Shown here one piece after another: positions 16,153 to 43,126 of a stretch of DNA of 49,269 bases; position 1 is the first letter of the stretch; every line of letters begins with the position of its first letter. The notes below the pieces were generated by a model. The model had not been told where the DNA came from and searched no databases. It worked only from the letters and a program-made list of their open reading frames with translations. Source of the DNA: an archaeon BMS3Abin17 (GTDB lineage Archaea; Nanobdellota; Nanobdellia; Pacearchaeales; GW2011-AR1). The position numbers and the translations under genes were made by a program. Where the stretch lies: the NCBI GenBank assembly GCA_002897655.1, contig BDTJ01000033.1:1-49269 (forward strand). Direction: 5' to 3'.

Positions 16153-16875
16153 ATGGAATTAAAGAAAAAAGACTTTATACAGGTTGAATTTACAGGAAAG
16201 CTCAAAGATGGAAGTGTTTTTGATTCAAACATAAAAAAGGACCTTGAAAAAGCAGATTTAGACATAAAAGCAAAACCCTTTACTTTTTGCCTTGGAGAAG
16301 GAATGTTTATCAAAGGAGTAGATGATTTCTTGGTTGGAAAAGATGTTGGAAGTTATAAAATTGAATTAAATCCTGAAGATGCATTTGGAAAAAGAGATTC
16401 TAAACTTGTTCAGATGATGCCTATGAAGGTTTTTATTGAGCAAAAGATAAATCCTGTTCAAGGAGCAGTCTTTAATTTTGATGGAAGGATTGCAAAAGTT
16501 CTTACAGTCTCTGGAGGAAGGATAATGGTTGATTTTAATAATCCAATGGCAGGTAAAGAAGTAGTCTATAATTTAAAAGTTCTGAAAAAGATTGAAGATA
16601 TTAATGAAAAAATAAAAGCATTAAATGAGTTTTTGTTTAAAAAAGACTTCAAGTTTGAAGTTAAAGATAAAAAGATAACGCTTCATGTTGAAAAGCCAAT
16701 GCTTCAATTTGTTGAACTGTTTAAAGATAAATTTAAAGATATTTTTGGGTTAGAACTAGGGGTTAAGGAAATTGAAGAAAAATCTGACAAAAAGGAAGCC
16801 GAGAAAAAAACTGAAGAAAAAGAAGAGAAATCTGAAGGGAAAGTTGAAGAAAAGAAAGATAAGTCCTCAGATTAA
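16153..16875 (+). CDS. FKBP-type peptidyl-prolyl isomerase (SlyD-like) with K/E-rich tail
   Basis: DFIQVEFTGKLKDGSVFDSN ... FCLGEGMFIKGVDDFLVGKDVG. Confidence 0.92.
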   Translation: MELKKKDFIQVEFTGKLKDGSVFDSNIKKDLEKADLDIKAKPFTFCLGEGMFIKGVDDFLVGKDVGSYKIELNPEDAFGKRDSKLVQMMPMKVFIEQKINPVQGAVFNFDGRIAKVLTVSGGRIMVDFNNPMAGKEVVYNLKVLKKIEDINEKIKALNEFLFKKDFKFEVKDKKITLHVEKPMLQFVELFKDKFKDIFGLELGVKEIEEKSDKKEAEKKTEEKEEKSEGKVEEKKDKSSD

Positions 16876-16888
16876 TTTATTATTTACT

Positions 16889-17677
16889 TTATTCTAGTTC
16901 TACGAAGAAATAATAAGGGGTAACTGAAGTGTCTGTCCCTCTTCCATCCTCTAGTACAAGCATCTCAAAATCATAATCTTTATTATCAAACCCTAACATA
17001 TTCCCTGGCTCTATAAGAGATGTAAAAATAACACTGGATGTTGCTGGTTCGTAAAGCAATACTTCTTCAAATTCGTCATTTACTCCTGCTCCTGTATCGC
17101 CATAAATTCTTGTGCTTCTGCACTCTCCTTCACTAAATTCCTGATTTGCAGTATAAAACAAATCATGAGTTCCTGCCCCGCTTAGTGTGAAAGTTTCATC
17201 AACACCATCAACATCACCTGATGCTATGTTGAATTGGCTTTCAAGAGTTGTGAGATTAGTCCCGTACAAGCTAGTTGTTCCACCATTACCAGATTCACCA
17301 GTGTAAGAACCGTCTGCAGTGAAGTTAAAACATTGTATATTATCCCAGGTGATACTTCCATTAGTTGAAGCATAGATTTCTCCCTGAGGGTCTGCAAGAG
17401 ACCAGTTATACAAGACATTATCACCCGAATCAGCTAATTGTATTGTACCTGTTATATTACCAAAATAGCCCTGCCAGGTTTGGGTAACTGAATAACCAAA
17501 TATGTTTAATTCTGTAACATTTCCTGCCTGAGCATTCATTGTTCCGGCAGCATCAGCAGGGGCTGTTTCTGATCTTTCTTCAGTTACTGCTCCTCCTGTT
17601 GGCTGTATTGCCATAATAAGCGGAATACTAGCAAGTACTGCAACAGAAAAAAATAATAGTATTAATTTACACCTCAT
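16889..17677 (-). CDS. secreted protein consisting of a single WGxxG/YASTN surface module
   Basis: Signal peptide; WQGYFGNITG, GEIYASTNGSITW, YDFEMLV...YYFFVELE. Confidence 0.75.
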   Translation of the reverse strand: MRCKLILLFFSVAVLASIPLIMAIQPTGGAVTEERSETAPADAAGTMNAQAGNVTELNIFGYSVTQTWQGYFGNITGTIQLADSGDNVLYNWSLADPQGEIYASTNGSITWDNIQCFNFTADGSYTGESGNGGTTSLYGTNLTTLESQFNIASGDVDGVDETFTLSGAGTHDLFYTANQEFSEGECRSTRIYGDTGAGVNDEFEEVLLYEPATSSVIFTSLIEPGNMLGFDNKDYDFEMLVLEDGRGTDTSVTPYYFFVELE

Positions 17678-17692
17678 TTTCTTATTTGTTTT

Positions 17693-18571
17693 TTATTTTA
17701 AGCCTTCTAACATTGTTTTAAGTTGTGATACATCTTTAGATAATGAAGATTTTTTATTAATCTCTTGGAGTGCTTCAACATATCTTTGGACTTTTTTAAC
17801 TAATCTCTCTAATTCTTCTTTGTCTGCTAATTCTGTTACTTTATTCTTTAAAAAATCCACATCTTTTGTATTCTGGCTTAAATTAATTTTTAATTCTTGG
17901 AGATTGCCGCTAAATAAATCCACATCCTGAAATTTTTTTCTTAATTCTGAGTATATTGTTTCTACCTTGTCTGCATCTATATTTATATTTGCTTCCACTT
18001 TTTTAATTTCCACAAGTTCTTTTTTTACTTCTTCCCCCAATTTTATGATTTCTTCAATCCCCCTAAAAAACTCTATTTTTTTCCTGACTTCCTTTAATTC
18101 CTCCATTATTCGGTTCATAATTGCTTCATTTCCTTCCAGATTGGCTTTTAATGCTTCAAATTTAGCATCTTCTTTTTGTATCTCAATCATTAGCTTATCA
18201 GGATGCACACTCTCAACTAAATCAGCTGCCTTTACTGATTTTAACTCAATCTCCTGAATTGTCCTGTCTCTATCAAGTATCATTGCCCTCAACTCGCCAA
18301 TTTGCTCGCTTAGTCCTGTAATTCTCTCAGTTAAACCTTTTCTAACTTCACCAAAAGATTCCACTGCTATTTTCAGCCTGTCAATCTCTGTTGTGAGTTT
18401 TATAAAGTCCTTTGGATTTTTATTGGAAGCAGGTTCTTCTCTTTTATCTGCAATCTCTTTTGTTTTATTTCCATCTTCTTTAAGGGCATTTTTTATGATT
18501 TCTTCCTGATTAACTTCTGGCTCCTCCCCAGATTCCTCCGCTTTCTTAAATATTTTTAGTGGATTGAACAT
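17693..18571 (-). CDS. coiled-coil protein
   Basis: Long heptad-rich helices. Confidence 0.75.
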   Translation of the reverse strand: MFNPLKIFKKAEESGEEPEVNQEEIIKNALKEDGNKTKEIADKREEPASNKNPKDFIKLTTEIDRLKIAVESFGEVRKGLTERITGLSEQIGELRAMILDRDRTIQEIELKSVKAADLVESVHPDKLMIEIQKEDAKFEALKANLEGNEAIMNRIMEELKEVRKKIEFFRGIEEIIKLGEEVKKELVEIKKVEANINIDADKVETIYSELRKKFQDVDLFSGNLQELKINLSQNTKDVDFLKNKVTELADKEELERLVKKVQRYVEALQEINKKSSLSKDVSQLKTMLEGLK

Positions 18572-18893
18572 TTTTTATCTCCTTTTTTATGTCTTTTATC
18601 AAGTCATGCAGTTTATTGAATTCTTTAATATCAAAACTCACCTGAAAATGTTTAATTTTACTGGGCATTAATAATGATTTGTTCCTTGCAAAGAATACAT
18701 CCCCTGATTTTTTCTCCAAATCTTCTATTTCCTTTTCTAATTTGTGGCATTGTATATGTAATGAGGAAATCAAAGAATATTTAAGGGCATGCTCTAGTTC
18801 TTTTTCATCATTAATACTTTTTAATTTCTTATAGACCTCCTTTTTTGTAATTTTTTTAGCAATTTTTAGGAGATTTTTCAACTCCTTTCCCAT
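18546..18893 (-). CDS. small helical protein
   Basis: ORF overlapping next gene by 26 nt and following HerA-fusion gene by 5 nt. Confidence 0.65.
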   Translation of the reverse strand: MGKELKNLLKIAKKITKKEVYKKLKSINDEKELEHALKYSLISSLHIQCHKLEKEIEDLEKKSGDVFFARNKSLLMPSKIKHFQVSFDIKEFNKLHDLIKDIKKEIKNVQSTKNI

Positions 18894-18898
18894 CTTAA

Positions 18899-21800
18899 TT
18901 AAACACCTTTTTTATTTATAACTCTTTCTACATCTTTTTTATTTGTTTTATTAATATTAAGATATCCTGTAATTTCATTTATTATGCTTTGTTTATCCTT
19001 TGCTTTTTTTATTTCTTCTCCAAAATTAGGGTCAATTTCTCTTGAAACCCATGCAGCAATATCATTCTTTTTATCATTAACATGTGAATTAAACACAGAC
19101 TCGTCCAATTCAGGCAATACTTCCGCCAATTCTTTTATACTAGAGATCATCATCCCGTTTTCAAATGTTAATGGACTCAGAATCTTTGAACCTATATCTT
19201 CCTCTTTTTCCCCCTCTGCTTTTTCTTCCTCTTTTTCCTTATTCTCTTCTTCCCATTTCTCTCTGCCTCTCTTGGCATCTGCTAAAGAGGACCTTAATTC
19301 CCCCTCATCTATTAAATTTATCTCTCTCTCTTTTGCTTTCTTCCCGATTTTCTCCCATTGCTTCTCTATTCTTGGTTTAAGACCTTCAAGGTAAATATCT
19401 ACTACTGTAAAATTTCCTAACATTAATTTATCTTTTACAAGTTTAAGTTCTATTTTCAAATCAAAAACATCTTCTTTTTCACCCTCTAATTGTTCTATTT
19501 GGTACTCTATATCCTCAATTATATCATTATATTTGTTGTATTTTTCAAGCACTTCATCTGATAGTCTTCTTGTGTTATGCAATGTCGGCCTAAAATTAAT
19601 AAAATAAGGTAAACCTTTGTTGTATTCTGCATTTTGTATCATTCCAGTACCCACATCTGCCCTTACTAATGATTTTAAGGCATCTAATCCATACCTTTCT
19701 TTTATCCTTTCCAGATCATTTTCTTCGGCAACCCTCATCTGAATCTCTGTATTTATATTAGCCTTTATCTCTCCAACAAAATCAGAAAGCACTTGTGAAA
19801 CAAGCATTACCCCTAAACCCCATTTTCTAAATTCTCTGCAGGCTCTTTCTATTTGCAGAAATCCCCTTCCAGAACCCCCAAATTTAGGAAGTAAACGATG
19901 CACCTCATCAAAAACAAGGAGTGTCTTTAGTTCTGGATGCTCTTGGGGGTCTGATTTAAACACAGAATTAATAACTCCTGCAACAAATAAATCTATTCCA
20001 GAAGGATCTAATTTATTCAGGGTAAATATCTGAATCTGCCCGGGATTTATATATTTCTTTATATCTATTGCCTGTTTTGGATTTGTGATTTGCCTGACAT
20101 TTCCTGCAAATGCTTTTGCATCACTTTCTTTTAAACCAAATTTTGGATATAAAGACAGCATTTTTTTATCCTCACACTTTCTAAGCATCCCAGACCACTG
20201 GGCAGTTGGATCAAAGACCACTACAGCAATTCCTCTTCCCAGAGCTTCTTCTATTATAACTTGTGCAGAGATACTTTTGCCCCCACCTGTTGCCCCGGCA
20301 ACTATTGCATGGGTTGTAAGGTCATCAAGGTTGTAATAAGCAGGAATCTTTTTTTCAGCTATTTTTCCAAGTTTAATAGACCTATTTCCTTGTTTTGGCA
20401 AAGTATCAATTTTAAGGGCAAGATGGTATCTTTTTCTTTTTTGAACCTGCCAACGGTATAAAAGTCCATTGAGTAATATAAAACTAAAAGCAGATATCCC
20501 CACAAATATAATCCATAAAGGGATGCCAAAGAAAGAATACATGTACATTGGCTTGATTATTGTAAAAGGGGAGTTTATGCTGGAGAAGTAATTAAGGTAT
20601 GCCGCTTCCACTCTTACAAGATATTTGCCTTTTGTGATGTTTTTAGGAAGATTAAATTCTTTTAATAACCCTAAAGAATTCTTAATCTCAACACTTTCTT
20701 CCTCTTCTAAATATATTTTAGATTCATCAGAGTTTAAAATCATGTGTTTTAGATTAATTTTATATCCCTGTTCACTCAATAAATTTTGAAGTCCTAGTTC
20801 ATATTTTAGACTGTCTCCTTCCTTCACTTCTTCTTTAAAAAGGGATATTTTCATTAATAAATTTTCAATTGAGAACTTTTTTGAGACTATTTCTATTTTT
20901 ACAGGAATCTCTGATTCTAAATCTCCACTTAGTGTCAATGTCCCTTTATAGACCCCAACTGGTTTAATGCCGGAGATTGTCAGAGTAACATCTCCAGATG
21001 AATCCGGAGAGATTGTAAGTAAGTTCGAGTCTAATTTAATAATCTCTTCTAAATTAGAGGATATTGTGAATAAAACCTGCATATTTGAATCACCAAAATT
21101 ATATATGCTGATTTTTTCTTCCACAAAAGTATTTTCTCTAACCTGTTTGTTAATCTCACTTGCAGAAATCCAAAAATCCTCTCCTCTCCTCTCTGATTCT
21201 ATCTTTGCTTTATTTTTCTGATCTCCTTCTTCATCATCAATTTTGTTTTCAGTATATGGTCCTGTAGGATAATCATTAAGATTGGCACTTTCTAAAGTAA
21301 TGTTGTGGTTTAAGCTACTGGTGTTGGTTATATTTAATAATGCATAATAGTTGTTGTAATTTTGTTTAATTGCGATTATTGGATTTATTCCTGTAATGGC
21401 TGTAGTATTAAATGAATAGTGTCCGGTGCTATTGGTTGTCGCATTGCTACCCCCAAGATAAATATTGACATCTGATAAAGAACTTCCAGCACTGTCACTT
21501 ACCACTCCAAAAACATTAATATTAACAGTCCCCCCACTTAATAAAGGAGTTTCTGTTTCCATGGTTATATTTCTATTTAAGATATAATTCGAAAAATTGA
21601 TTCCAATAATCTTCAGGTAAGGGTCATATCCTGATTTTTGCGCAATTAGATTATAATTCCCTTCTATGACATAAGTGGAAAAATTATAAAATCCAGAAGA
21701 GTTTGTTGTGCCATTATATCCTGCAACATTAACTGTTACATTTTCTATTGGATTGCTTCCGCTGTCAAAAACATATCCATAGATGTTAGCATTTATTCCG

Positions 21801-22582
21801 TTCCCTATGCCTCCTGAAGGACACTCATCATCTGGGTCCACATAAAAATAATATGTTTGGGTTGTATTTGCAGGTGTTGGTAATAACATCTGGTAATTCA
21901 CTAAAAAATCCGGATTAAAACCCTGTTGGATGCTTTCATTAATGTGGCTTACAAAAACAAGACTTCCAGAGACATTTAATACTCCGACATCAAATATGTT
22001 GTTATCTCCATTAAACTTATATGTGAAAGTTGAGGGAATATTTGTTATGTTTGTTCCCCCGAGGAATATAGTCATATTTTTTGTAAATGTATTATTGGCG
22101 CAAAAGACTTCATTAGAGCAATTAATAAATTCGTCTATCATCTCAGTTGTTCCAGAAGATACATCTGAAGTAGACAAATCCAGAGAAGCATTAGTTGAAG
22201 CATAAAACTCAGGTCCCCATTCAGCATCATACTTAACACAATCAAAAAATATATCTGCTCTTTCTATACCTCCACTGTCCAACTCTTCATTTAATTGTTG
22301 GGTAAAATTAGGAACTCTTAAAACAAGTCCATATATTCCCCCCCAAACATCAACAGTCTTTGAAGAGCTTATACTAACTTGTGTAATATACCCTCCCTTA
22401 CTGGCTATATATGTTGAAAACCCTGTAATCTCAATCAAACTTAATGCAATTAGAAGTATAAACAAAAATAAACCTATTAAAAATAAGGAGATTAGAATGT
22501 GTTTTATTACTTTTTGTAGATCATTTATTCTGGACTCTTTTTTAATTATCTCCAAGACTTTCTTATTTTCCCTCTTCTTCAT
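18899..22582 (-). CDS. membrane-spanning fusion: N-terminal TM, surface module, carboxypeptidase-regulatory-like repeats, TM, HerA/DUF87 ATPase, helical C-terminal domain
   Basis: WGGIYGLVLRV...FYASTNAS; two 'NINVFGVVSDSAGSSLSDVNIYLGG' type repeats; second TM then AIVAGATGGGKSISAQ (Walker A), TLLVFDEVHRLLPKFGGSGRGFLQIERACREFRKWGLGVMLVSQ. Confidence 0.85.
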   Translation of the reverse strand: MKKRENKKVLEIIKKESRINDLQKVIKHILISLFLIGLFLFILLIALSLIEITGFSTYIASKGGYITQVSISSSKTVDVWGGIYGLVLRVPNFTQQLNEELDSGGIERADIFFDCVKYDAEWGPEFYASTNASLDLSTSDVSSGTTEMIDEFINCSNEVFCANNTFTKNMTIFLGGTNITNIPSTFTYKFNGDNNIFDVGVLNVSGSLVFVSHINESIQQGFNPDFLVNYQMLLPTPANTTQTYYFYVDPDDECPSGGIGNGINANIYGYVFDSGSNPIENVTVNVAGYNGTTNSSGFYNFSTYVIEGNYNLIAQKSGYDPYLKIIGINFSNYILNRNITMETETPLLSGGTVNINVFGVVSDSAGSSLSDVNIYLGGSNATTNSTGHYSFNTTAITGINPIIAIKQNYNNYYALLNITNTSSLNHNITLESANLNDYPTGPYTENKIDDEEGDQKNKAKIESERRGEDFWISASEINKQVRENTFVEEKISIYNFGDSNMQVLFTISSNLEEIIKLDSNLLTISPDSSGDVTLTISGIKPVGVYKGTLTLSGDLESEIPVKIEIVSKKFSIENLLMKISLFKEEVKEGDSLKYELGLQNLLSEQGYKINLKHMILNSDESKIYLEEEESVEIKNSLGLLKEFNLPKNITKGKYLVRVEAAYLNYFSSINSPFTIIKPMYMYSFFGIPLWIIFVGISAFSFILLNGLLYRWQVQKRKRYHLALKIDTLPKQGNRSIKLGKIAEKKIPAYYNLDDLTTHAIVAGATGGGKSISAQVIIEEALGRGIAVVVFDPTAQWSGMLRKCEDKKMLSLYPKFGLKESDAKAFAGNVRQITNPKQAIDIKKYINPGQIQIFTLNKLDPSGIDLFVAGVINSVFKSDPQEHPELKTLLVFDEVHRLLPKFGGSGRGFLQIERACREFRKWGLGVMLVSQVLSDFVGEIKANINTEIQMRVAEENDLERIKERYGLDALKSLVRADVGTGMIQNAEYNKGLPYFINFRPTLHNTRRLSDEVLEKYNKYNDIIEDIEYQIEQLEGEKEDVFDLKIELKLVKDKLMLGNFTVVDIYLEGLKPRIEKQWEKIGKKAKEREINLIDEGELRSSLADAKRGREKWEEENKEKEEEKAEGEKEEDIGSKILSPLTFENGMMISSIKELAEVLPELDESVFNSHVNDKKNDIAAWVSREIDPNFGEEIKKAKDKQSIINEITGYLNINKTNKKDVERVINKKGV

Positions 22583-22692
22583 TATATAACTTCTTCAAGA
22601 TAATTAATAAACTTTTTTATCCTTTAGTTTTTGAGGTTATCCAGCAAAAAATTTATATATCCAGAATTACTGATAGATTTGTCTATTTAAAA

Positions 22693-23265
22693 ATGAATTT
22701 TTTATTTAAGAAAAAAGAGGTTCCAGAGGAATTACCTGATCTTGCAATTGAAGAAGTAAATGAGATTTCTGAAAGAATAGAGGATTCTAACTCTAAAATA
22801 GTGTATAAACCCCTTCCAAAACAAGAGGATTATCTGCCAAATGAAACAGAATTAAAATCTTCTGAGAAAGAAACCCCCCCAATTATTGACCCTGACGAAA
22901 AAAGTTTTTTTAAGGAAATTATAAAAAATGTTACTGAAGAGACAAAGAACATTGATAAATTAGACTCTTGGTACAAAAATAAATTTCTCCCGGAAGATAT
23001 GGTCCATCAAATGCGTGAATATTGGGAGAAGCAATCTCCAGAAGTAATCTTAAAGAGTATTGGCAGTGATTTAAAAGAGAAATTATTGGAAAGAACAAGG
23101 GAGTTACAGAGATTAGAAAGAGAATGGCAGGAGATTTATTTCAAATTATTAGCTAAGGAGGAAGAGATAAGAAAAGAAGAGAAAGGGCTAAAGGCTTCTT
23201 TATCAGAAATTATAAATTTATTTAAAAAATCTTTAGCTAAAAAGAAGGGTAAGGGCAGGAAATAG
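22693..23265 (+). CDS. coiled-coil protein (divergent from HerA fusion)
   Basis: K/E-rich helical ORF in intergenic promoter-sharing position. Confidence 0.7.
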   Translation: MNFLFKKKEVPEELPDLAIEEVNEISERIEDSNSKIVYKPLPKQEDYLPNETELKSSEKETPPIIDPDEKSFFKEIIKNVTEETKNIDKLDSWYKNKFLPEDMVHQMREYWEKQSPEVILKSIGSDLKEKLLERTRELQRLEREWQEIYFKLLAKEEEIRKEEKGLKASLSEIINLFKKSLAKKKGKGRK

Positions 23266-23342
23266 TCTGCCCAATATAAAGAAATCCCAATTCTTGTTAA
23301 TTAAAGACAAGGTTTTATATATAACTTGCATCTTAATATGAA

Positions 23343-23693
23343 ATGTCTAAAAAGAAAAGAGAATTAAAAAAGAAAGCTTATAAATTAGACAGGACGAGGA
23401 TGACGATTCTTATAATAATCTTAACTATATTCCTAACCACCCTTTTTTTATACCTCTTGGTCCAGTTCAACATAATCTCCCCACTAAAAAAGATAAGTCT
23501 TGGTCCAAAGTTATTTATGTTAGAAGATGAATGCACCCTTGTTGTAGGGAAATTAATCCATACAATAAAAGATGATAATACTTGCGAATTTAGATGTAAA
23601 ACAAATTGTGAGGTAAGAGAGATGCTCTTTTATAAATCAGATTTCCTTAAAAACCAAGGAGATTGCAATGAATGCACCTGTTATTGCACATAA
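23343..23693 (+). CDS. small membrane protein with Cys-rich exterior
   Basis: One TM followed by 8 Cys in about 55 residues. Confidence 0.65.
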   Translation: MSKKKRELKKKAYKLDRTRMTILIIILTIFLTTLFLYLLVQFNIISPLKKISLGPKLFMLEDECTLVVGKLIHTIKDDNTCEFRCKTNCEVREMLFYKSDFLKNQGDCNECTCYCT

Positions 23694-23695
23694 AA

Positions 23696-24316
23696 ATGAA
23701 GATAGAAGATATAGAAACAATCTATAAAAAAGAGATAAAAGAGGCTGAAAAAGAATTCTTAGAAGGCATGAAAAATAAGAAAAATCTGGGCGAACTGGAA
23801 ACCATATATAAAAATAAATTGAGGCTTGCAAGAGAGGATTATTATGAGTCAATTTCCAAGGTAATAGAAAAACAAAAAGAATCTATAAAAAAGAAGGACA
23901 AAAAAGAAGACAAAAGTGAGAAAGTAAAGTGCTTTAAATTAAAACCTGGAAAGTTTGGGCTGACTCTTCTCCAGAGAATTAAATTCAGGCTTGGATACTT
24001 ATTCTTTAAACTTGGTTTTAGATTAAGAAATTGGCTGAAGAAAATAACCCCCAACATTCTATCTTATAATTACATAAAGATAAAGATAACTATTAAGAGA
24101 ATTTCACTATATCTGAATAATCTATTTTTGGAATTCTCTATAGTAATCAAAGATAATCTCAGGAAAATTTATTCTCTGGCAAAAACCGGGATAAAAAAGT
24201 TATTAGAAATTGCTAAGAAGATTACTGAAGCAACATTGTTTAGGTTCAGCAAAAAAGATTCCTCCAAAGAAGGGGAAGAAAAAAAGAACCAAATTAATTC
24301 AAGTCAAAATAAATGA
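23696..24316 (+). CDS. charged helical protein
   Basis: Start at MKIEDIETIYKKE, 2 nt after previous stop. Confidence 0.65.
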   Translation: MKIEDIETIYKKEIKEAEKEFLEGMKNKKNLGELETIYKNKLRLAREDYYESISKVIEKQKESIKKKDKKEDKSEKVKCFKLKPGKFGLTLLQRIKFRLGYLFFKLGFRLRNWLKKITPNILSYNYIKIKITIKRISLYLNNLFLEFSIVIKDNLRKIYSLAKTGIKKLLEIAKKITEATLFRFSKKDSSKEGEEKKNQINSSQNK

Positions 24317-26186
24317 AAACATCATTGCTATCTGCGGTATAATATTCTCTGAGTCTGACAGGAACTCTGATTTCATAATCATATGTCCCGTATTTTCCGG
24401 GCTGGGTTTTATTTATTTTCGCTGCAAATACAATATCTTCCTTATCAGAACTGCTGTACTCTCCATCAGAATCATCAGACATATCCCACAAGATTCCTGT
24501 AATGAAATTAGTATTATTTGTTGAATTGATTACCGGCACATTAGTTATGTTTTCTTGGTAGATAAAAAAGTCTTGTAATAACTTAGGGGTATTGCCGTCA
24601 CTGGTGAATATATTTGAGACAGAATCATTAAAATCAGCCATATCTAATAAGGTATCTATCTCAGAAAAATCATTAGATGTTGTTTGCCCTGTGGTATTTC
24701 TTCCTATTGCCTGCAGGGAAGCCCAGTCAACATTAGATTCTGTATCAGCAATAAAAATATTTCCAGATACTGAGTTTTCATTAAGCCATATACTCATATT
24801 CATAACGCCCTGGTCTGCAATTATCTTGTCTAAAGTCACATTCCCATAAAATTCCTGCCAGGAATTTACAATTATTGTATTATTGGCTTTATTGTTTGTT
24901 TCATTTTCCTCGTTAATTAAATCACTTAAATCAACAGAAACAAAAATATTTGTTATCCCAATCTTTGCCGGCCAGGTTATATTAGCTGTATTATTTGAAA
25001 AAGATGTTATTGAAATTGTCTGGTTCTCTCCAATTTGTGTTCCGCCTACGTCAGGGTCTTCTTCAAAAAAACCAACTAAGAAATTATCTGCATTAGCACA
25101 TCCATTATTATATACTGTGGAATTAATATCTATGACCTGGTTTTCAATTGGATTTAAGTTACTAAATATGATTTCATCTGAATAAAGAATTAGTTCAGAT
25201 AAACTATTGTTCTTTACTATTATTGTGTCAGGAGCTGTTTTATTCACTTGATTTCCAGCACTATCATTAGCTAGGCAGTTAAAGCTCCATGTTCCTATCT
25301 CATTAAGAGAAATATCAGAATAATATGTGTCTCCGGATAATAACTGAGCAGTGTAATTAACTTTTCCAGATAAGGGTTTATTTGCTTCTATGATAACTTT
25401 ATCTATATCTGTTAAGGAATCTGTAACACTGCAATTTACTTTCACTTGTTCACTTATTCCGCAAATATCTCCTGTCAGGTTCAAACTTACTGAGCTAATC
25501 ACAGGGTCAGTTAAATCAACAGTTAAGGTAAAGTTTTGGTCCGCAAAATTTGAAATAAAGAGGCTGTCTTTTACTAAGCAAGCCCATTTGTAAATCCCTT
25601 CTAACAGGGATTTTGCAAAATTAATTGTGTCTGTAGTCCCTGAAGCAGACTTTGTTTCATTTGCGTGCCATCCCCCGCTCCAGTTTCCGTAGAGAGTTAC
25701 ATTAGCAAGATTTCCATCAAGGTCATTTGCTGTGCAATTAAAGTCAATACTTGAAGAAGAAAAATTTGCATAGTTAATAGGAGTATCAAGAGTAATGTTT
25801 GGAGGGGAATTTAAAGTTAGGTTTGGCATGATATCAGAACTTGCCACGGTTACAGACCTATTTACTGTTTCTGTTATATAATTACTTCCATTGTTCAGAA
25901 CCCTTACTTTAATTTCATCATTCACAGAACAGGGAGTATTAAGCAATTCACAATCAATACTATAATTGTTATTTACTCCAGAGTTTCCTGTTGGCCCGAT
26001 AATGTCAGTCATATTATCATCAATCCCGTTTGCAGGGTTCCATAATAATATTTGGTATCCATTTGCAGATGTTCCATCAAGAGAATCATTCACAGTACCA
26101 ATCATATAATGAACAGCAGAGATAAATGGCATAACTAATACTATCAAAAATACTAATAACCCTAAAATAGAAATATTTCTTGACAT
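24294..26186 (-). CDS. secreted surface protein with Ig-like, CARDB-like and shared C-terminal module
   Basis: Signal peptide; CARDB-like NPIENQVIDINSTVYNNG; C-terminal IGRNTTGQTTSNDFSEIDTLLDM...YDYEIRVPVRLREYY. Confidence 0.85.
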   Translation of the reverse strand: MSRNISILGLLVFLIVLVMPFISAVHYMIGTVNDSLDGTSANGYQILLWNPANGIDDNMTDIIGPTGNSGVNNNYSIDCELLNTPCSVNDEIKVRVLNNGSNYITETVNRSVTVASSDIMPNLTLNSPPNITLDTPINYANFSSSSIDFNCTANDLDGNLANVTLYGNWSGGWHANETKSASGTTDTINFAKSLLEGIYKWACLVKDSLFISNFADQNFTLTVDLTDPVISSVSLNLTGDICGISEQVKVNCSVTDSLTDIDKVIIEANKPLSGKVNYTAQLLSGDTYYSDISLNEIGTWSFNCLANDSAGNQVNKTAPDTIIVKNNSLSELILYSDEIIFSNLNPIENQVIDINSTVYNNGCANADNFLVGFFEEDPDVGGTQIGENQTISITSFSNNTANITWPAKIGITNIFVSVDLSDLINEENETNNKANNTIIVNSWQEFYGNVTLDKIIADQGVMNMSIWLNENSVSGNIFIADTESNVDWASLQAIGRNTTGQTTSNDFSEIDTLLDMADFNDSVSNIFTSDGNTPKLLQDFFIYQENITNVPVINSTNNTNFITGILWDMSDDSDGEYSSSDKEDIVFAAKINKTQPGKYGTYDYEIRVPVRLREYYTADSNDVFIYFDLN

Positions 26187-26188
26187 TC

Positions 26189-26320
26189 TCACCTCTTTAT
26201 ATTTTTCCTTATAAGGTCTTCTATATATTTAGATATTTCTATTTCTTTATCAATGCAAGCCTTTTTCAGCTCTTTCCAGAGTTCTGAATCAATTTTCAGG
26301 CTTGTTGTTTTTCTCACCAT
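26189..26320 (-). CDS. ribbon-helix-helix regulator (43 aa)
   Basis: MVRKTTSLKIDSELWKELKKACIDKEIEISKYIEDLIRKNIKR; stop 2 nt before surface-gene ATG. Confidence 0.8.
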   Translation of the reverse strand: MVRKTTSLKIDSELWKELKKACIDKEIEISKYIEDLIRKNIKR

Positions 26321-28241: not shown

Positions 28242-28424
28242 ATGGTAAAAGAGGAGATTTTATTTAAAAAAGGGGTAAGGGTTCAGGGGTTAAACAGGAT
28301 AGCTATTCCTAAAGAGCTTCTGGAGAATCTTGAGATGGAAGAAGGGGATAAAATTGTTATTTATTACAATGCAAAAAATTCCAGTATAAATATCAAAAAA
28401 GAAAAGGAGAAGAAAGATGAATAA
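28242..28424 (+). CDS. AbrB-family regulator (60 aa)
   Basis: RVQGLNRIAIPKELLENLEMEEGDKIVIYY; overlaps next gene by 8 nt. Confidence 0.8.
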   Translation: MVKEEILFKKGVRVQGLNRIAIPKELLENLEMEEGDKIVIYYNAKNSSINIKKEKEKKDE

Positions 28425-31400
28425 TAAAGGTTTGATTAAAAGAGGAATTGTAGGAAGTTTTTTGATTATTTTTATTTTTATTTTATTAATTGTAATCCTT
28501 TCAATTTCTTCTTCTGCAATAATTCAGAAAGAGACTTACATCTTAGGAGAAAAAGTAAAAATTAACTTGGGGAATATCAAGGATTATCAGCTAAAGATAA
28601 AAACTCCTTCAAATAGTTATGTTGTAAAGGGAGATAATGAGGTATTTATTTTTAAGCCAGATGAAGCTGGAAAATATGTCCTGAGTTTGCACTATCAGGA
28701 AAAACTAGAAACTTACGAGTTTGAGGTTATTAGTGAAGAAAAACAACCAGAAATAAAATCAACTCAGGAGATAATTGAGGGGGTTGATGGGGAGATAATT
28801 GAGGAAGATGTTAATGCAAAAGAGTTAGATAATGAAACTGTTAGTTATGATGAACCTCTTGGTGAGGGTGTTATAGATAATCCTGAAGAACAGCAGATTA
28901 CAATAAACAAGCCAGTCAGATGGAACATACACAAAACTCTTCCGGAAAATATAGAAAAAATAAGAATCAGGATTCCATCACAAGCAGAAAACATCTCAGT
29001 AAATAAAATAACCCCTGCAGGAAAACAAAATTTAGATGTTAAGATAGACAAAAACACTTTAACAAACACTTTAACAAGAATAAAAACTTTAAATAAAAAT
29101 CAGGGTGAGAAGACAATAACCTTGGATAATGTAAACGGTGAGATTGAACTTGAATATTATACAGAAGCCCCAACAACAAAGGAAAAAGATTTATCAGAAA
29201 GTAAAAAGCAAGTCAAAGTCTCAAGTCCAGATGGTCTTCATTATGAAAATGTTTTATCTTACACCTCAATTCTGGAATTCACTTCTGATAAAAATTTAAT
29301 AAAAGTTTACTGGAAAGAAGAAAATAAATACCTAAATTTCGAAGCTTTTGACAAAGATGGAAATGGTTTGCTTGATTATGTTGAGTGGATTGTTCCGCAT
29401 CTGTCAGAGCAGACTTTTGAAATCTCTATAGAAATCTTAAATGTTCAGAGCTATCCGGTTGTTGGAGGAAACTGGGAAGTTAAGTTTAATACACTGGGAA
29501 AAGCAGACCTGAAAATTTCAGGAATTAATGGAACAGTGTTTGGAAAGGATTTAGAATTTTTAGAGATAAAGTGCGGTGATACAGCACTGGATTACGAATG
29601 GAAAAATAATGATATTTTTATTAAGAATTATGAGTGTGAAGAAGAAGGAACAGAGGTCAGCAAGGTTTTAACTCCTGGAAAACATACACTTGAGTTTAGT
29701 TTTGGTGATAATAAGGCTTATGCTTATAATCAGGCTGGTTATTTTCAGATAGAGTGGAATAATTTAACTGTTTCCTGTGAAAACTGGGTATCAGTCAATT
29801 TTAAACAACCATATGAAAGCCCTATTGTTGTCGCAACCCCTGAATATACCTCAACATCAACTGATTTTGGCATTAGTTCCTGGGTGAGAAATGTCAATAC
29901 TACTGGTTTTGAATTAAGAGCCTCTAATCAGGGACTTAATTGCACTGATAATATTAGTATGAATTATATTGTAATGGAAGAAGGTAATTGGACTCTTCCT
30001 GGTTCAGGGATAAAAGTTGAAGCTGGAAAATTCAATACAACAAAATATGGTTATCAGGGAGCTGGTAATTGGGATTGCCCTGCTAATGGGGAGAGAATAG
30101 TATTTAACCATACCTTTGATGATTCAAACCCTTTAGTCATCTCTGTTAGGGCAACAGATTCTAATTCAGGAATATGGGCAGCCACTTTTCAACACGGACC
30201 AACTTATAATTCAGATGTAAATTCCACTGAGATGTGTACTGGTCTCAGTAGAAGCAGGGCAGGTACAACTACATTTACCAACCAGGAGACTATACATTAT
30301 ATTGTTGCTGATACTGGCACTGGAAATATAAGCAATGTAAGTTTTGAGATTAACTGGTGGGTACATGATACCGGGCCTAGCGGGGATCTTTGGATTAATG
30401 GATATCCTGATGGAAGGCCTTTTATTCAATCCTGGAGCAGTTCCTGGAGTTCTGCTCCACAGGTAATTGCTGTCGGGCAAACAGGAGTATGGGGAAGTGA
30501 CGGAGGATGGCCTGTTTTATATGACCATAATATAACTTATATAAGAATTTTTACAGATGAATCAAATGAGAGGGCTCATGGTGGTTCTGAATCTGGAGGA
30601 GGATGGGCATTTGAAAGTTCTGGAAGTTCCACTCCAAGCCCGGTTATCTCTAATGTAAATGCAACAGGCATATCTGATTCTTCTGCAACAATAATCTGGA
30701 ATACAGATATTAACTCTAACTCTTCAGTTAATTATGGGACAACACTCTCTTTAGGAAGTTCAAATAAAAACTCAGATTTAGTTTTAAATCACTCCATACT
30801 TCTCTCAGGATTAAATGCAAACACCTTTTATTATTATAATGTTACTTCTTGTTCTGCTTCTGGAGTCTGCAGCACAGAAGGTTATGATAATTTTACAACA
30901 ATAACAGGAACCCCCCCTGTAATTTTTAACATAACTCCGGCAAACAATTCAATTATTCCTAATCCGGTAACTCTCTCAGCCTCAACAAGCGAGAATGCTG
31001 ATTGTGAGTACAGCACAAATTCAAATTTTACCTATGGAACAGGAACAGATTTTACAGCAGGCCAGGGAACATCATTCCACTCAACCTCTCTTGGTTCACT
31101 AAGTTCAGGAACCTACACCTATTACATAAAATGTGAAGACCTGTCTGCTAATGCAAATGATGATTCAAACCAGGGCTCAACAATATTCACAGTAGATGAA
31201 ATTTCCCCAGAAATTACACTTCATTATCCAATAGCTGGAGAAATTGATTATCTTTCTCCTACAGTATTTAACTGGACAACTACAGATAATTTTGATACAA
31301 TCTTAAGCTGTAATTTGTATCTTGATGATAGTTTGCAGGAAAGCACTATTACTTCTTCTAATGGCTCTGTTACAAATACTTCAGCAACTGCTGGTTTTGG

Positions 31401-34400
31401 AGCCCATAACTGGACATTAAACTGTTCTGATGATAGTAATAATACTAATTCAGAGACGAGCTGGTTTTACTTTGGACAGCAAACACAATCATCTAAAATA
31501 GGTGAAGTGGGCAGAGTAGAAATAAATGCTTCAGACTGGACATTAGTAACACTCACAAATACTTTCATAACACCAGTCATTGTAACAGGATATGAATTTC
31601 CATTTAACAATACTGTTCCCCCTGTGTCTGTAAGGATGAGAAATGCAGGTTCATCAAGCTTTGAGATAATTTTACAACTGGCAAATTCAACAGCTTCACC
31701 AGATGATGTTGGAAATCTTAATGTAACTTATTTAGCAGTTGAACAGGGATATCATTATATGGATGATGGAACAAAAATTGAAGCATATCGTTATGATACT
31801 GGCACAGTTTCCAGCAGTGGAAACGGATGGAACAGTGCAGACAGCAAGTCATACAACCATACTTATTCAACAGCACCAGTGGTCTTCCATCAGGTAATGA
31901 CTTACACTGATGCAAACTGGATTACAACATTTGCTTCAGCAGACGGAGATGCAGCAAATCCTCCAACAACAACAGGATTTCAAGTTAGCTTAAATGGAGC
32001 AGAATTTACAAATAGTCATGGAACAGAAACAATTGGATATGTTGTGATAGAAATAAATAACGGGATAAATGACCTCTTATTATATGAAAGCAACATATCA
32101 GGAGATATTGTAGAAGGGGTAGACACGGATCCTTCATGCGGAAGTTATAATATTAATCTTGATAATTCTTATTCTTCTTCACCAATAGCCCTTAGTTCAG
32201 TTCAGAGCATGGACGGGTCAAATGGAGGATGGTCACATATATGTTCAATCAGCACAACACAAGTAAGCATGAGGATAGAAGAAGACCAGTTTAGCGATGA
32301 TGAAAGAACCCATATCACAGAAGATGTCTCAATATTTGTATTTGAATCTGCAGGAACAATTTATAGCAATACTACTATTGAAATCCCTCAAATTTATGAT
32401 GTAAATGCAACAGGCATATCTGATTCTTCTGCAACAATTGAATGGAACACAAATATAACCTCAAATTCAACAGTATATTACGGGCTTGCAAATACTTCTT
32501 ATTTTATGGAGGGCAGTTTATTGTTTGTTTTAAATCATTCAATCCAGATAACTTCTTTATCAGAAAGTACAACTTATTTTTACATTGTGGAGTCATGCAG
32601 TGAAACCAGCGGGACATGCAATTTTTCAGGAACATTTAATTTTACAACAATAACAGGAACCCCTCCTGTAATCTTTAACATAACTCCGGCAAACAATTCA
32701 ATTGTTTCTAACCCGGTAACTCTCTCAGCTTCGACAAGCGAGGATGCTGATTGCGAATACAACACAAATTCAAATTTTACCTATGGAACAGGAACAGACT
32801 TTACAGCAGGCCAGGGAACATCATTCCACTCAACCTCTCTTGGTTCACTAAGTTCAGGAACCTACACCTATTACATAAAATGTGAAGACCTGTCTGCTAA
32901 TGCAAATGATGATTCAAACCAGGGCTCAACAATATTCACAGTAGATGAAATTTCCCCAGAAATTACACTTCATTATCCAAATGAGGGTGATAGTCTTTTG
33001 AATAACGTGCCTTTTAACTGGACAACTACAGATAATATTGATTCTGTTCTTCTATGTAATCTCACAATTAATTCTGTTGTTTATCAGTCAGATATTAACT
33101 CTACAAACGGAACAGTAACAAACACAACACAAATTTTGCCTGATGGATTGCATTTATGGAATATTACATGCATAGATGATGCAGGAAATACAAATACAAG
33201 CGAGACAAGAAGCTTTACAATTGGAGCATATATTATTACAAATGTAACAACAGATAAAAGCCAGTATTATCAGGGAGATTTAGCAAACATCACAATAAAT
33301 GCAACAGACCTTACATCTCTTCCCTTAGAGACAAATCTTACAACAGATATTGTGCTTGGAGTGTCTATTGATAATAGTACAATTTGGTGGAATTCTTCCT
33401 GGCAATATAGAACCTCACACAGAGTCAAGGAAAATTCTGGTTCAGATTTAACAAATTATCAAATTAATATTACTCTGGACACTCAAAATTTAATCAGTCA
33501 GGGTTATATGAATTCTGATTGCAGTGATTTAAGATTAGCAGACAGCTCATTAAGATTGCTTAATTTTTATATACAAAACTCCAGTTATGATGGGTGCAAC
33601 ACCTCAATTACAAAGATATGGGTTCAATTAAAATCCTTGAAAGCAAATGAATCAACTTTAATCTATACATATTCTGGCAACAATTCAGCAGGCTCTTTAA
33701 GCAGCGAGTTTTTGACATTTAATTATCCTTCTTTTCAGAATTTATATTATGTTGTTTCAAATGATATCACAAATGTTGATGTGATAAGTTTTGTTGATGG
33801 AAATAATGTAAGCAACGGAACATCATATGTTTCATTAGACAGGGGGGATTTAACAAGCTTCAGTGCCAATCAATCAACAATCATTAGTTCAACAGGGCCA
33901 ATATTTGCAGCAGGTGATGCCAACTCTGTTGATGCTCTTGCGCCAATCTCTTTTGCAGGAACAGAGTTTGTCTATGCAGTAAACAGGTATAATGATGTCT
34001 GGCATGTATATAGCCCATTTGAGAATGCAACTGTCTGTGTTTATGATGGAGAGGATGGAAGCGGCTGGACTCTGATTAATTCTTGTTTTACAGTAAATAA
34101 AAATTCAGCAACAACAGTAACAAGAAATGTCGGAGGCACTTCAAGTACAGTTGACTCTGCAAATACTGATACAGCAATGATTAATTCCACTGCCCCTGTT
34201 TTAATTACTCATGATACAGACTCAGATACAGACTCTTTTGTCCTGTATCCTGCTTCAAATGATTGGTGGGGAGTTCCAAGCACAAGAATGACAATAGGTA
34301 TTCTTGAGGACAGCACATTAATTCAGGTATATTACAGTAATGGATCAAATATTAATTATTCAGGAAATCACGGGCAGGATATTTATCTGGACACATTTTC

Positions 34401-37400
34401 TACAGGGGGGCTGGATTCTGCAGTGCATATTATCTCAGATAAGCCAATTGGTGTTGCTCAGGAAGCAGACCAGGATGGGACAGAGATGACAACATTCTTG
34501 CCAGAACATGAATTAGACACAGAATACTTTATCCCTCAAACAGCTTCTTATATTGCAGTCTCTGCAACATTTCCAGACACAAATTGCACTCTCTATAATG
34601 ATGCAGGAACAATTTTATCCTCTTCATTAACAGGAAGCAATCAAAGGCCATATCCAAATAAATGGTATTACGGACCAGACCAGTCAAGCAGCAATATTCC
34701 TGCAGGCTCAAGATTAAAGTGCGACCAGCCAGTTTATGCATATTACGAACAGTTTGGAGATGGTGGAGATGACGATGAGCACAATGTTTGGAGTATAAAA
34801 TCTTCCAGAAAATTCACAAATAATCCTCCAACCATAACAGAAACAGGAACACAAGAGCAATTCATAATAAGAGACATAAATGAAACTAATTCAAATGGCT
34901 TATACAGTTTTATATTTAATACAACTTCACAAATAATTGGGAATTACACTGCAATTAGCTTAACTTCAAAGCAAGGGTATAATAACGGAACAGGACAGGC
35001 ACAATTTGAAATTTTGACTCCTCTTGTACAAACAGCTCCAAATGTGACTCTCACAAACCCACCAAACAATACATTTCAAAATACATCAGCAATTATCTTA
35101 TATTATAATGCGACAGATATAAACAATAACATAGCAAATTCCACACTGATTTTAAACAGCCAGAGAAACACTACAAATCAGTCTGCTATTATTAACGGGC
35201 AGATAAATAATTTCACAATAACTCTCTCAGACGGAATTTACACATGGACAGTGAATGCAACAGATGCAACAAATTTAGAAGGAACAGATAACAGCACAAG
35301 AACCTTCACAATAGATACTCAAGCCCCGAGCATTGCATTGCATAATCCATTAGCTAATGAATCTTTTTCACAAGGGATAATAATATTTAATTTCACTGTA
35401 ACAGACAATACTGATACTGCAATGGTGTGTGATTTGATAGTGGACAGCACTGTTGAAGAAGATGATTTTAATGCTCAAAATAACACCCCTGTTAATTTCA
35501 CAAAGTCTTTTGGTGCAGGAACACACTTATGGAATGTTACTTGCTTGGATAATGCCGGCAATCTTGGGATAAGCCAGACAAGAAATTTCACTGTAACAGA
35601 AGAGCCTCCAACAGTTGAGTTAATTACAGGAAATGACACTTTTACAAATCTCACAACAATCACTCTTGTTTATAATGCAACAGACAATAACGGGTTTACT
35701 GAATCAAGATTAATATTAAACAGCATTGTAAATCAAACAAACCAGACAGAGATATTAAACGGGCAGTATAATAATTTTACTTTAACTGGTCTTTCTGATG
35801 GTATTTACACATGGACAGTTAATGTAACAGATACTGCAGGATTAAATGCAACTGCAATTCCAGAGAGAACCTTCACAGTAGACATCCAGCTTCCAGAGAT
35901 AAATCTTAACTTGCCTGCAGATAATTCTTTCTCAAACTCTTCGTCACTGAGTTTTAATTTTACAGCAGCAGATAATTTAGACTCTTCATTAACCTGCAGT
36001 CTGGCAGTTGGAGAAATTCAGGATAACAATTTCCAGGCAATTAACGGAACCCTGACAAACAGGGTTATTAATGGCTTGACTGATGGACTAAAGACATGGA
36101 ATGTTTCTTGTGTGGACAATGCAGGAAATTATAATATAAGTGAGAACCGTGCAGTAAACATAACAGAATATCCTGCAATACAGTTAAATACAGCAAACAG
36201 CTCATTTTTTAATACCTCTTCATTTAATCTTTCTTACACTCCCTCAGATAATACTAATTTAAGCAATTGTAGTTTATATGTTGATGATATTTTTAATCAA
36301 TCAAATTCCAGCCAGATAAATAACGGACAGCAGAATAATTTCTCTGTTTCAGGGATAAGTGAAGGCTCTCATAATTGGAGTGTTGTTTGCATGGATTATG
36401 CAAATCTTCAAAACCAGTCAGAAACAAGAATATTCACTGTTGATTTGGATGGATTAACAGTAGAGTTATTTGCTCCTGCTTCAGGAGCAATGATTTTTTC
36501 AGACACAGTTGAATTTAATTATACTGCTACTGACAATATTGACCCTGTTTTAGATTGTAATATAACTATAAATGGTGTTGTAGAGGACAGTTATAGCGCG
36601 CCAAATGGAACCCTGGTTTCAAGGCAGGTTACTTCTTCACAAGGAGGATTTAAATTATGGAATGTTACATGTATTGATGACTCATCAAATACTCAGACAA
36701 GCGAGACAAGAAACTTCACTCTCGCATTTGCACCAATTGTAACACTAAACAACCCGCCAAATAATAGTTTTTATAATTCATCCAGTATTACTCTTTTCTA
36801 TGAAGTTACAGATGATAATAACAATCTTGCAAATTCTACACTGATTTTAAATGGCCAGAGAAATATTACAAACCAGTCTGCAATTTTAAATGAGCAGGTT
36901 AATAATTTAACAGCTAGTTTGCCTGATGGAGTTTATATCTGGACAGTGAATGTAACAGATACAACAAATTTAGAAGGAACAGATAACAGCACAAGAACTT
37001 TCACAATAGATACCCAGCCACCAATAATAAATCTAAGCCAGCCGGAAAATAACAGTATTGTAACCTGGAATAATTTTAGTTATAATTTTACAGTTATTGA
37101 TGCCCTGGATGATGTTCTTTTGTGTGATATATATGTAAATGGAGCTTTAAATCATACTGTGAATGCAACAAATGGCACAGAAACTCTTGTAAGCAGTGTT
37201 CTTCCTGATGGAGGATATTTATGGAATGTATCTTGTTCAGATAATGCAAATAATACAGGATTTAGCACAGCCTTTAATTTCACAATGGAGGCTCCTCCGA
37301 ATGTTAGCTTGGTTACACCTGAAAATGAGCACTTTTCAAATACTTCCACAATTTCATTCACATATTTTGTGGACGACCCTATTGGAATAACAAACTGCTC

Positions 37401-38940: not shown

Positions 38941-40752
38941 TTATTTTTTCAAACTTTTATCTTTGATAAATTTAAGAAGTCTTTTGAAATTATTTCTTGT
39001 TTCCTTACTTATTTTAACAGACTTTTTTTGCACTAATAATTGATTTATCGCGTAATTCAAGTTTTCCTTCGCTTTTTTCCCATTAGATTTAATTTCATCA
39101 AAACTACCTATGCCATAAACAGAATCATGGATTTCTTTTTGATCAAATTCTTTAATAAGTCCTTCTGTTGCGGTGCTTATATCCAGAATGTCTTTTAATG
39201 TAAAAATTCTTTCTTTGAGAAATTCGTTAAATTCTTTTTCATATTTCTCTTTAGACCTTATGCTTGGGGCATCTCCGTCCATAATAACTAAAAATTCTTT
39301 TCCCCAAGATAAATAGAGTCTGATTATATCCCATAATTTGTCTTTTCCAGCCCCAGAATAAAAATTAAGAACATTTTGGTCTTTGAGTATAACTTCTGAA
39401 AAATATTTTATGGTATACCAATCATTTTTACCTTCTAGGATTACTATGTTAGGTATTGGTTCAACGGTACTTGGTTTATAATCCAGTTTATCAAGAATTG
39501 GTTGAAAGTAAGAAATCTTATCATTTCCTAATCCTGTCCCCACATAAGTGAAATATTTTATAGCTGATATTTTTGCTCCTTCACTCAGATTAAGATTTCC
39601 TGCAAGTGTCTCTTCAGACAAATCTTCATTTATGCAAATATATGCTCCTGATAACCAATCAATCTTTATCAAATGGTGACTATGAGTAGAGAAAATAACC
39701 AGTGCATCCTTACTAAGTTCACCCAATGCTTCTAAAATTTTAGTTTGTGCTGAAGAGTGTAAATTTGAAGCAGGTTCATCTAATAGAAAGAGAATGTTTT
39801 TGGTTCGTTTTTTTCTAAATTCAGTAAAAAGAAGAAATGAGAAGAACCATTTGAAGCCTTTGCTTCTCTCGTTCACTAAAAACTCCCTTTTACTCTGAGT
39901 TCTAATTTTGAATGTTAGGTAGAATCTTCCCCCAGAATATTTTGGCTCTAATTTTATTTCTTTGAAATTTACTTTATGTTCTCCAAATAATTCACTCCAC
40001 CTAGAAGTAATTTTCTCATCTAACACTTTTTCCATTTGGGCTAATCTATTGCTGGCAGCATCCTCATCAGTCTCCCAAATATCCACTACATGCTCTTGAA
40101 ACCCCATCTGTGAATTTACCACTTTGAGTATATCATCAATAACCGATTTCCAAACTTTGTTATCTTTATTTGTTATTTCTTCATCTTCTGCCACTCCTTG
40201 TTTGACAAAACATATCTTATTAGGAATTTGAAAAATGAAGTCATCGAAATAAAGTATTTCTGGTACAATCTCTTTTTTTACAAATTCGATTATTTCTTGC
40301 CAAATATTTCTATCTGTTTGGTATAGGCTTTTCTGTGCTGTTTTTATCTTAATTCCAAAATCACATGTTCTGGAAGTTTCCTGATAAGTATGCAACTTAA
40401 AAGTAAATTTATGGGTATAACTAAACTCATTGGGTATATCTAAGTGCGTTCTTTTCCTTTTCTTCTTCCAGTGTTCTTGAATTTGTTTTTTATCATCTTC
40501 TTCCAAACTTAATGTCGCTTCAATCTCTATGTCCCCTGTAAAATCTATACCTTTAGGTCGAAACTCATTTAATTCACTTGTTTCTGGATCGTTTCCTTTA
40601 ATCATACGATAAAATAACGCAATCGCTTCCATTATTGTAGTCTTTCCGCTTTCATTCAACCCTACAAGTGTGATGATTCTATTATTTTCTAAGTTAATCT
40701 CTACTTTGTCTATTCCTTTAAAGTTTTTTATTTTAAAATTCTTGTAAAGCAT
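38941..40752 (-). CDS. OLD-family-like AAA ATPase with TOPRIM domain
   Basis: Walker A GLNESGKTT, LFLLDEPASNLHSSAQ, TOPRIM VILEGKNDWYTIKYF and LVIMDGDAP. Confidence 0.85.
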   Translation of the reverse strand: MLYKNFKIKNFKGIDKVEINLENNRIITLVGLNESGKTTIMEAIALFYRMIKGNDPETSELNEFRPKGIDFTGDIEIEATLSLEEDDKKQIQEHWKKKRKRTHLDIPNEFSYTHKFTFKLHTYQETSRTCDFGIKIKTAQKSLYQTDRNIWQEIIEFVKKEIVPEILYFDDFIFQIPNKICFVKQGVAEDEEITNKDNKVWKSVIDDILKVVNSQMGFQEHVVDIWETDEDAASNRLAQMEKVLDEKITSRWSELFGEHKVNFKEIKLEPKYSGGRFYLTFKIRTQSKREFLVNERSKGFKWFFSFLLFTEFRKKRTKNILFLLDEPASNLHSSAQTKILEALGELSKDALVIFSTHSHHLIKIDWLSGAYICINEDLSEETLAGNLNLSEGAKISAIKYFTYVGTGLGNDKISYFQPILDKLDYKPSTVEPIPNIVILEGKNDWYTIKYFSEVILKDQNVLNFYSGAGKDKLWDIIRLYLSWGKEFLVIMDGDAPSIRSKEKYEKEFNEFLKERIFTLKDILDISTATEGLIKEFDQKEIHDSVYGIGSFDEIKSNGKKAKENLNYAINQLLVQKKSVKISKETRNNFKRLLKFIKDKSLKK

Positions 40753-40770
40753 TCTATTACCTTGTTCTCC

Positions 40771-43122: not shown

Positions 43123-43126
43123 ATTC

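Follow-up and report, generated by a model that had tools for sequence, protein, structure and literature searches.

Gene content of the locus

The window analysed here is the whole 49,269-nucleotide stretch of contig BDTJ01000033.1 from the archaeon BMS3Abin17. By checking its open reading frames, we confirmed seven genes at 16889-24316 and found the layout to be as an earlier note had described it, with a tight minus-strand operon and a set of divergent genes whose reading frames, gaps and overlap all lie where they had been placed. The HerA-L and H1 genes are separated by 5 nt, H1 and CC overlap by 26 nt, and 15 nt lie between CC and S1.

18899..22582, minus strand: HerA-L, the 'locus A' membrane HerA fusion, 1227 aa (ORF, Pfam, TM scan, AlphaFold)
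18546..18893, minus strand: H1, small helical adaptor, 115 aa, with homology to the DUF5752-type adaptor
17693..18571, minus strand: CC, conserved cytoplasmic coiled-coil protein, 292 aa, companion of the membrane HerA
16889..17677, minus strand: S1 (SURF), secreted single-module surface protein, 262 aa, whose module is that of the HerA head
22693..23265, plus strand: D1, cytoplasmic helical/coiled-coil protein, 190 aa, with an N-terminal 'EVPEELPDLA' motif
23343..23693, plus strand: D2, Cys-rich single-TM protein, 116 aa, with a conserved 7-Cys C-terminal domain
23672..24316, plus strand: D3, basic helical protein, 214 aa, kept in position but poorly conserved in sequence
24294..26192, minus strand: CARDB/Ig surface protein, a conserved neighbour in Pacearchaeota-type loci

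The gene set proposed at first was right as to the core at the window, but the divergent genes D1-D3 are a Pacearchaeota-type addition outside the system core, and the genome has a further HerA locus on a different contig. D1 is conserved in Pacearchaeota-type loci and shows weak kinship to proteins elsewhere in the Woesearchaeota genomes that carry the system. The C-terminal module of the CARDB protein (24294-26192) is found again in a giant surface protein and, weakly, in SURF proteins. This giant, of 3456 aa, is encoded at 28417-38787; its last 510 aa match the CARDB protein, and the two carry one common C-terminal module. We rejected it as a carrier of BIG1, the large secreted partner described below, as the BIG1 HMM matches there are shared Ig repeats only. 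Further along the window (38941-44827), a putative restriction-modification-like pair, apparently a DNA methylase (43127-44827) and a helicase/restriction subunit (40771-43122), sits beside what looks to be an ATP-binding, OLD-nuclease-like protein (38941-40752).

Architecture, topology and motor domain of HerA-L

HerA-L combines the following segments:

aa 29-47: TM1, a hydrophobic segment preceded by the cytoplasmic N terminus
~48-260: surface module (the head)
~267-410: two CarboxypepD_reg domains, as two Pfam stretches
~470-685: two membrane-proximal Ig-like domains, from the AlphaFold model
aa 686-704: TM2, a hydrophobic segment
~735-1110: HerA-clade ATPase, with Walker A GATGGGKS, Walker B VFDEVH and pore lysine K900
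1140-1217: C-terminal DUF5752-like helical domain

The protein has two hydrophobic segments, with basic flanks before TM1 and after TM2, and 22 of its 25 N-glycosylation sequons fall between them (p=9e-4). From the flanks and the sequon placement it follows that the ectodomain faces outwards and the ATPase lies in the cytoplasm (Nin/Cin). In an AlphaFold model of aa 470-1120 (pLDDT 88.1), a pair of Ig-like domains is followed by a single TM helix and an ATPase of the RecA type; the model and the topology signals together place the membrane between the beta domains and the ATPase. The proposal of a 1227-aa protein with an outer surface module, two CarboxypepD_reg domains and an inner HerA ATPase is thereby borne out by Pfam, the TM segments and the sequons; of its domain list, the surface module and both CarboxypepD_reg domains stand, while the two membrane-proximal Ig-like domains had been missed.

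The ATPase belongs to the HerA clade of the FtsK-HerA superfamily. HerA-L matches the Pfam models DUF87 (43.6 bits, cut-off 23.2) and HerA_C (30.2 bits, cut-off 22), its best sequence kin are HerAs, and the closest whole-domain solved structure to the modelled ATPase is that of S. solfataricus HerA (4d2i, 4.3 A over 367 columns). Both Walker motifs are intact in every family copy checked. DNA translocation is known to require K363 in ssoHerA and R495 in drHerA (PMC9960219), and at the corresponding position, seven residues after the catalytic Glu, we found a lysine or arginine in 62 of 62 family members. The best NCBIfam model for HerA-L is CedD, scoring 46.6 bits, far under its cut-off of 600. 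The membrane HerA is predicted to form a hexameric ring, the model itself being of a single chain only.

Distribution and conserved gene order

At a match threshold of E<=1e-80, the membrane HerA ATPase was identified in 67 of the 377 sampled genomes of the phylum, and the locus is present in 6 of 37 genomes of the same family and order. Two named matches lie outside the phylum, in Nanohalarchaeota (L185) and Aenigmatarchaeota (L186). The gene clustering covered the surroundings of 40 loci taken from the phylum search, and 77 named loci were mapped. The order that recurs across the class is a ribbon-helix-helix (RHH) protein, BIG1, the membrane HerA (~1300 aa), a DUF5752-type adaptor and CC, often followed by giant surface proteins. 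Of 41 loci with room for it, 32 encode BIG1, a protein of ~1000 aa with secreted Ig/PKD domains, one TM segment and a short helical tail, immediately upstream of the long HerA, and an RHH gene stands upstream of BIG1 at the head of the operon in 24 of 30. Both precede HerA in most lineages; in this window RHH does not adjoin HerA. The CC gene lies downstream of HerA in 32 of 37 loci with room, so the ATPase keeps its neighbours in relatives, a test that the earlier note had set.

The window operon could be matched to this order through two homologies. H1 shares homology with two proteins encoded after HerA in Woesearchaeota, namely c7 and, in its C-terminal half, the DUF5752-type c4, and the C terminus of HerA-L (1140-1217) is homologous to the N-terminal half of the DUF5752-type adaptor; the window's HerA-H1-CC is therefore the HerA-adaptor-CC core of Woesearchaeota. 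The recurrence of this order across the class is more than chance. Among 281 genomes, all 51 with CC also have the membrane HerA (Fisher p=9e-50, treating genomes as independent, though they are related), and CC is an obligate companion of this ATPase.

Other gene types turned up in these neighbourhoods less regularly. Genes for SpoIIM-family membrane proteins lie near or inside four loci (L011, L014, L160 and L174), in the last of which the gene sits between tandem HerA genes. At L015 (genome G028), L182 and L185, the membrane HerA is in one frame with giant ectodomains (2000 aa or more), and in genome G181 a single HerA-giant ectodomain frame runs to 12283 aa with two stops inside.

We found no conserved polytopic DNA channel: any protein with four or more TM segments occurs in only 6 of 74 HerA operons, and no such family recurs class-wide. 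Any short 2-TM ORF, the form expected of a CedA1/VirB2-like pilin, is present in 3 of 74 loci (HerA operon only, ORFs of 60 aa or more). No nuclease, relaxase or competence gene is linked to the loci, and their recurrent neighbour clusters include no integrase, capsid or replication cluster, no effector-like or leaderless cargo family, and no GspE/VirB11-type ATPase or platform protein. NurA (PF09376) has no match anywhere in the genome of BMS3Abin17, which is 92% complete, in agreement with the earlier observation that no NurA partner is present. This genome does encode, on its contig C21 (L192, 904-2634), a soluble HerA-like ATPase with an apparent intein inside the Walker A motif.

A second locus and apparent exchange between paralogues

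The window holds only one half of this genome's two-locus system. The second locus (L018 on contig C31, 'locus B') also encodes a membrane HerA, and its genes are:

BIG1-like protein, 1052 aa
single-pass protein, 727 aa
short-headed HerA, 791 aa
adaptor, 195 aa
single-pass protein, 596 aa

In some Woesearchaeota (L156, L168 and L174), a short- and a long-headed HerA stand in tandem within one operon. When we compared the paralogues in eight genomes that carry loci A and B, identity between the A and B proteins was 17-26% in the membrane-proximal ectodomain, where locus-A proteins of different genomes reach about 50%. In the ATPase domain, A and B of one genome share 75-92% of residues, and the means for A-B pairs across genomes are 72-76%. 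The jump in identity falls directly after TM2, and in two genomes there are stretches of 98-100% DNA identity. In the ATPase tree, the window copy and one close relative each group with their own paralogue (98/93). The motors are apparently kept similar by exchange, but a strong constraint acting on both copies would fit as well.

A 275-nt 3' fragment of an FKBP-type gene that borders locus A (window 16591-16865) recurs beside locus B (L018:5718-5985) at 94% identity, as a remnant left by sequence exchange between these loci. S1 and a locus-B surface gene share 83% DNA identity; given this likeness and the duplicated FKBP fragment, sequence has moved between loci A and B.

Surface proteins and the HerA head

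The downstream gene S1, described at first simply as a single-module protein, is kin of the ATPase's own head: profile comparison found the S1 and HerA head modules to be homologous (99.5%, E 6e-23). Exactly three S1-type genes were detected in this genome: S1 itself at locus A and two more at locus B. AlphaFold gave a poor model of S1 (pLDDT 65), and a structure search from it was uninformative. Across the 281 genomes, SURF proteins reach eight copies per genome, often in tandem, and 39 of the 45 genomes with strong SURF matches also have the membrane HerA (p=1.6e-27). By hand comparison of the lists, strong SURF is found in none of nine genomes whose sole HerA is giant-headed (2000 aa or more), against 31 of 34 with a HerA of 700-1700 aa. 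Head type thus covaries with the surface proteins, since genomes with giant-headed HerA alone are without SURF and most of the others have it, as expected if the HerA head and the surface proteins work together. In the SURF arrays of Woesearchaeota (L193-L200), regulators are interleaved with the surface genes, one with sigma-70 region-4-like HTHs and one ArsR-like, which suggests switched expression of surface variants. SURF and BIG1 proteins have N-terminal signal/TM segments of their own and require no dedicated exporter; the N termini of the neighbouring surface proteins are Sec-type, and their export therefore has no need of the HerA motor.

Comparison with known systems

One close described likeness is the Ced system of Sulfolobales (CedB/CedD ATPases; CedA, CedA1, CedA2; CedE), which shares a membrane-anchored HerA/VirB4-like ATPase with a TM segment and an extra N-terminal domain, and whose CedD is needed for DNA import in Saccharolobus (PMC11868833). 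Ced too has two paralogous ATPases. The 74 loci examined here, however, lack a CedA/VirB6-like polytopic channel in their HerA operons, and Ced as described lacks the beta-domain ectodomain and the coiled-coil, DUF5752-type adaptor, BIG1 and SURF proteins. With no such channel in the operons and a CedD score under the family cut-off, we rejected membership in Ced or the type IV secretion systems. TdtA of Thermus thermophilus, the transjugation donor translocase, is a HerA-like hexameric membrane ATPase that pushes DNA out at cell contact (PMC5365140). It is a protein of about 64 kDa whose ICE-like element also encodes a NurA nuclease, in contrast to the fusion of motor and ectodomain found here in a genome where NurA was not detected. 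The HerA-NurA DNA-end resection complex agrees in its ATPase fold and in the position of the translocation Lys, but here Ig-like ectodomains and a TM helix stand ahead of the ATPase, and the absence of NurA led us to reject a repair pair of this type. Surface proteins, an ATPase and cytoplasmic coiled-coil proteins also recall the archaeal type IV pilus and archaellum, yet the ATPase is of the HerA clade and not of the secretion-ATPase (VirB11/GspE) clade. The GspE-type ATPases of this genome are found only on contigs C24 and C35 and none occurs among the recurrent neighbour clusters, so type IV pilus membership was likewise rejected.

The system is of the membrane-anchored HerA-clade translocase kind, and there is a real chance that it is also a new kind of machine. 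A search of the open-access literature (with subscription papers and preprints outside its scope) found no earlier description of the gene set, in keeping with its original designation as a candidate undescribed machine.

Proposed function and alternatives

Conserved partners and opposite-side topology uphold the idea of an envelope-spanning, multi-gene machine. Our overall reading, drawn from sequence and predicted structure, is of a machine that is anchored in the membrane, probably translocates DNA and is linked with a dedicated system of surface proteins; we favour it tentatively, at a little short of an even chance. The window locus would encode one half of an envelope machine that is spread over two loci and occurs across this DPANN class. 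In it, a predicted hexameric HerA ring would lie beneath the membrane with each subunit's ectodomain held outside by its two TM segments. The adaptor and the coiled-coil protein would bind this ring from the cytoplasmic side, and BIG1, a ~1000-aa single-pass partner encoded here at the second locus, would complete the membrane assembly. Because the HerA head and SURF carry the same module, the head most likely docks the motor into a SURF-built surface structure, a role that a giant covalent ectodomain would take in other lineages. At the docking site, the ring would most likely move DNA across the membrane, powered by ATP, in uptake or donation at cell contact. We infer the partner contacts, the docking, the DNA substrate and the direction of transport.

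The DNA reading is supported by the HerA-type fold, the intact Walker motifs, the K/R at the pore position, CedD as the nearest NCBIfam model and the RHH protein at the operon head. We also count in its favour the co-occurrence of CC and SURF with HerA, the homology of head and SURF, the lack of SURF where HerA is giant-headed, the signal/TM segments that SURF and BIG1 have of their own, and the similar motors with divergent heads at two loci. Against it, coupling of the ATPase could be what conserves the pore lysine, the RHH protein may be a simple autoregulator, and the usual neighbours are surface-protein genes rather than DNA genes. Weighing this evidence against the lack of a linked nuclease, relaxase or channel and against the surface-protein neighbours, we place DNA translocation ahead of a motor for surface assembly, which is a credible but less probable explanation. 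Such a motor would use ATP hydrolysis to assemble, anchor or remodel a structure of SURF or giant proteins for adhesion to a host or surface, and no DNA would pass. The homologous head and SURF modules, their tight co-occurrence and the covariation of head type with SURF all agree with this, as do the tandem SURF arrays with their own HTH regulators and the fusion of some motors to giant ectodomains (2000 aa or more); the conserved basic residue of the DNA pore and the Sec-type N termini of SURF proteins do not. We also know of no HerA/FtsK-clade ring of known function that builds surface polymers, and count this against it.

A protein-secretion motor of the EssC/VirB4 type, sending effectors into a host or neighbour, would account for a membrane-anchored P-loop ring with a cytoplasmic adaptor and coiled-coil proteins. 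We consider it improbable, as no effector-like or leaderless cargo family recurs among neighbour clusters, the secreted neighbours have their own N-terminal signal/TM segments and the operons include no VirB6-like channel. Slightly less probable again is an envelope-anchored chromosome pump like FtsK/SpoIIIE that acts at division: a HerA-FtsK superfamily motor in the membrane and a SpoIIM gene nearby in several genomes would suit it, but a patchy spread (67/377), a pair of loci whose heads differ and the way the system covaries with surface proteins do not suit a housekeeping role. Archaeal mobile islands often carry HerA-like ATPases (PMC4158269), and a duplicated fragment borders both loci. 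An origin as a conjugative element or packaging ATPase is nonetheless very improbable given the stable operon order across the class and the lack of a recurrent integrase, capsid or replication cluster. A viral origin was rejected after a scan of 2.9 million viral contigs found no relatives.

The earlier suggestion of a device for export, adhesion or DNA transfer thus survives in part: the evidence leans to DNA translocation with a surface or contact structure, and export of the neighbouring surface proteins is disfavoured by their Sec-type N termini. We think it possible, if doubtful, that the system is a contact-dependent nucleic-acid transfer machine of an undescribed class, in which the outer half of the HerA ring would be a surface-polymer subunit or a giant adhesin. 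Attachment and DNA pumping would then be united in one polypeptide, with two interchangeable heads on a motor whose copies gene conversion would keep alike.

A defined and conserved gene set with motor and outside head on one chain makes it testable how DPANN archaea, many of which depend on a host, exchange DNA or material with their partners. One motor with two heads, evolving in concert, is an unusual design.
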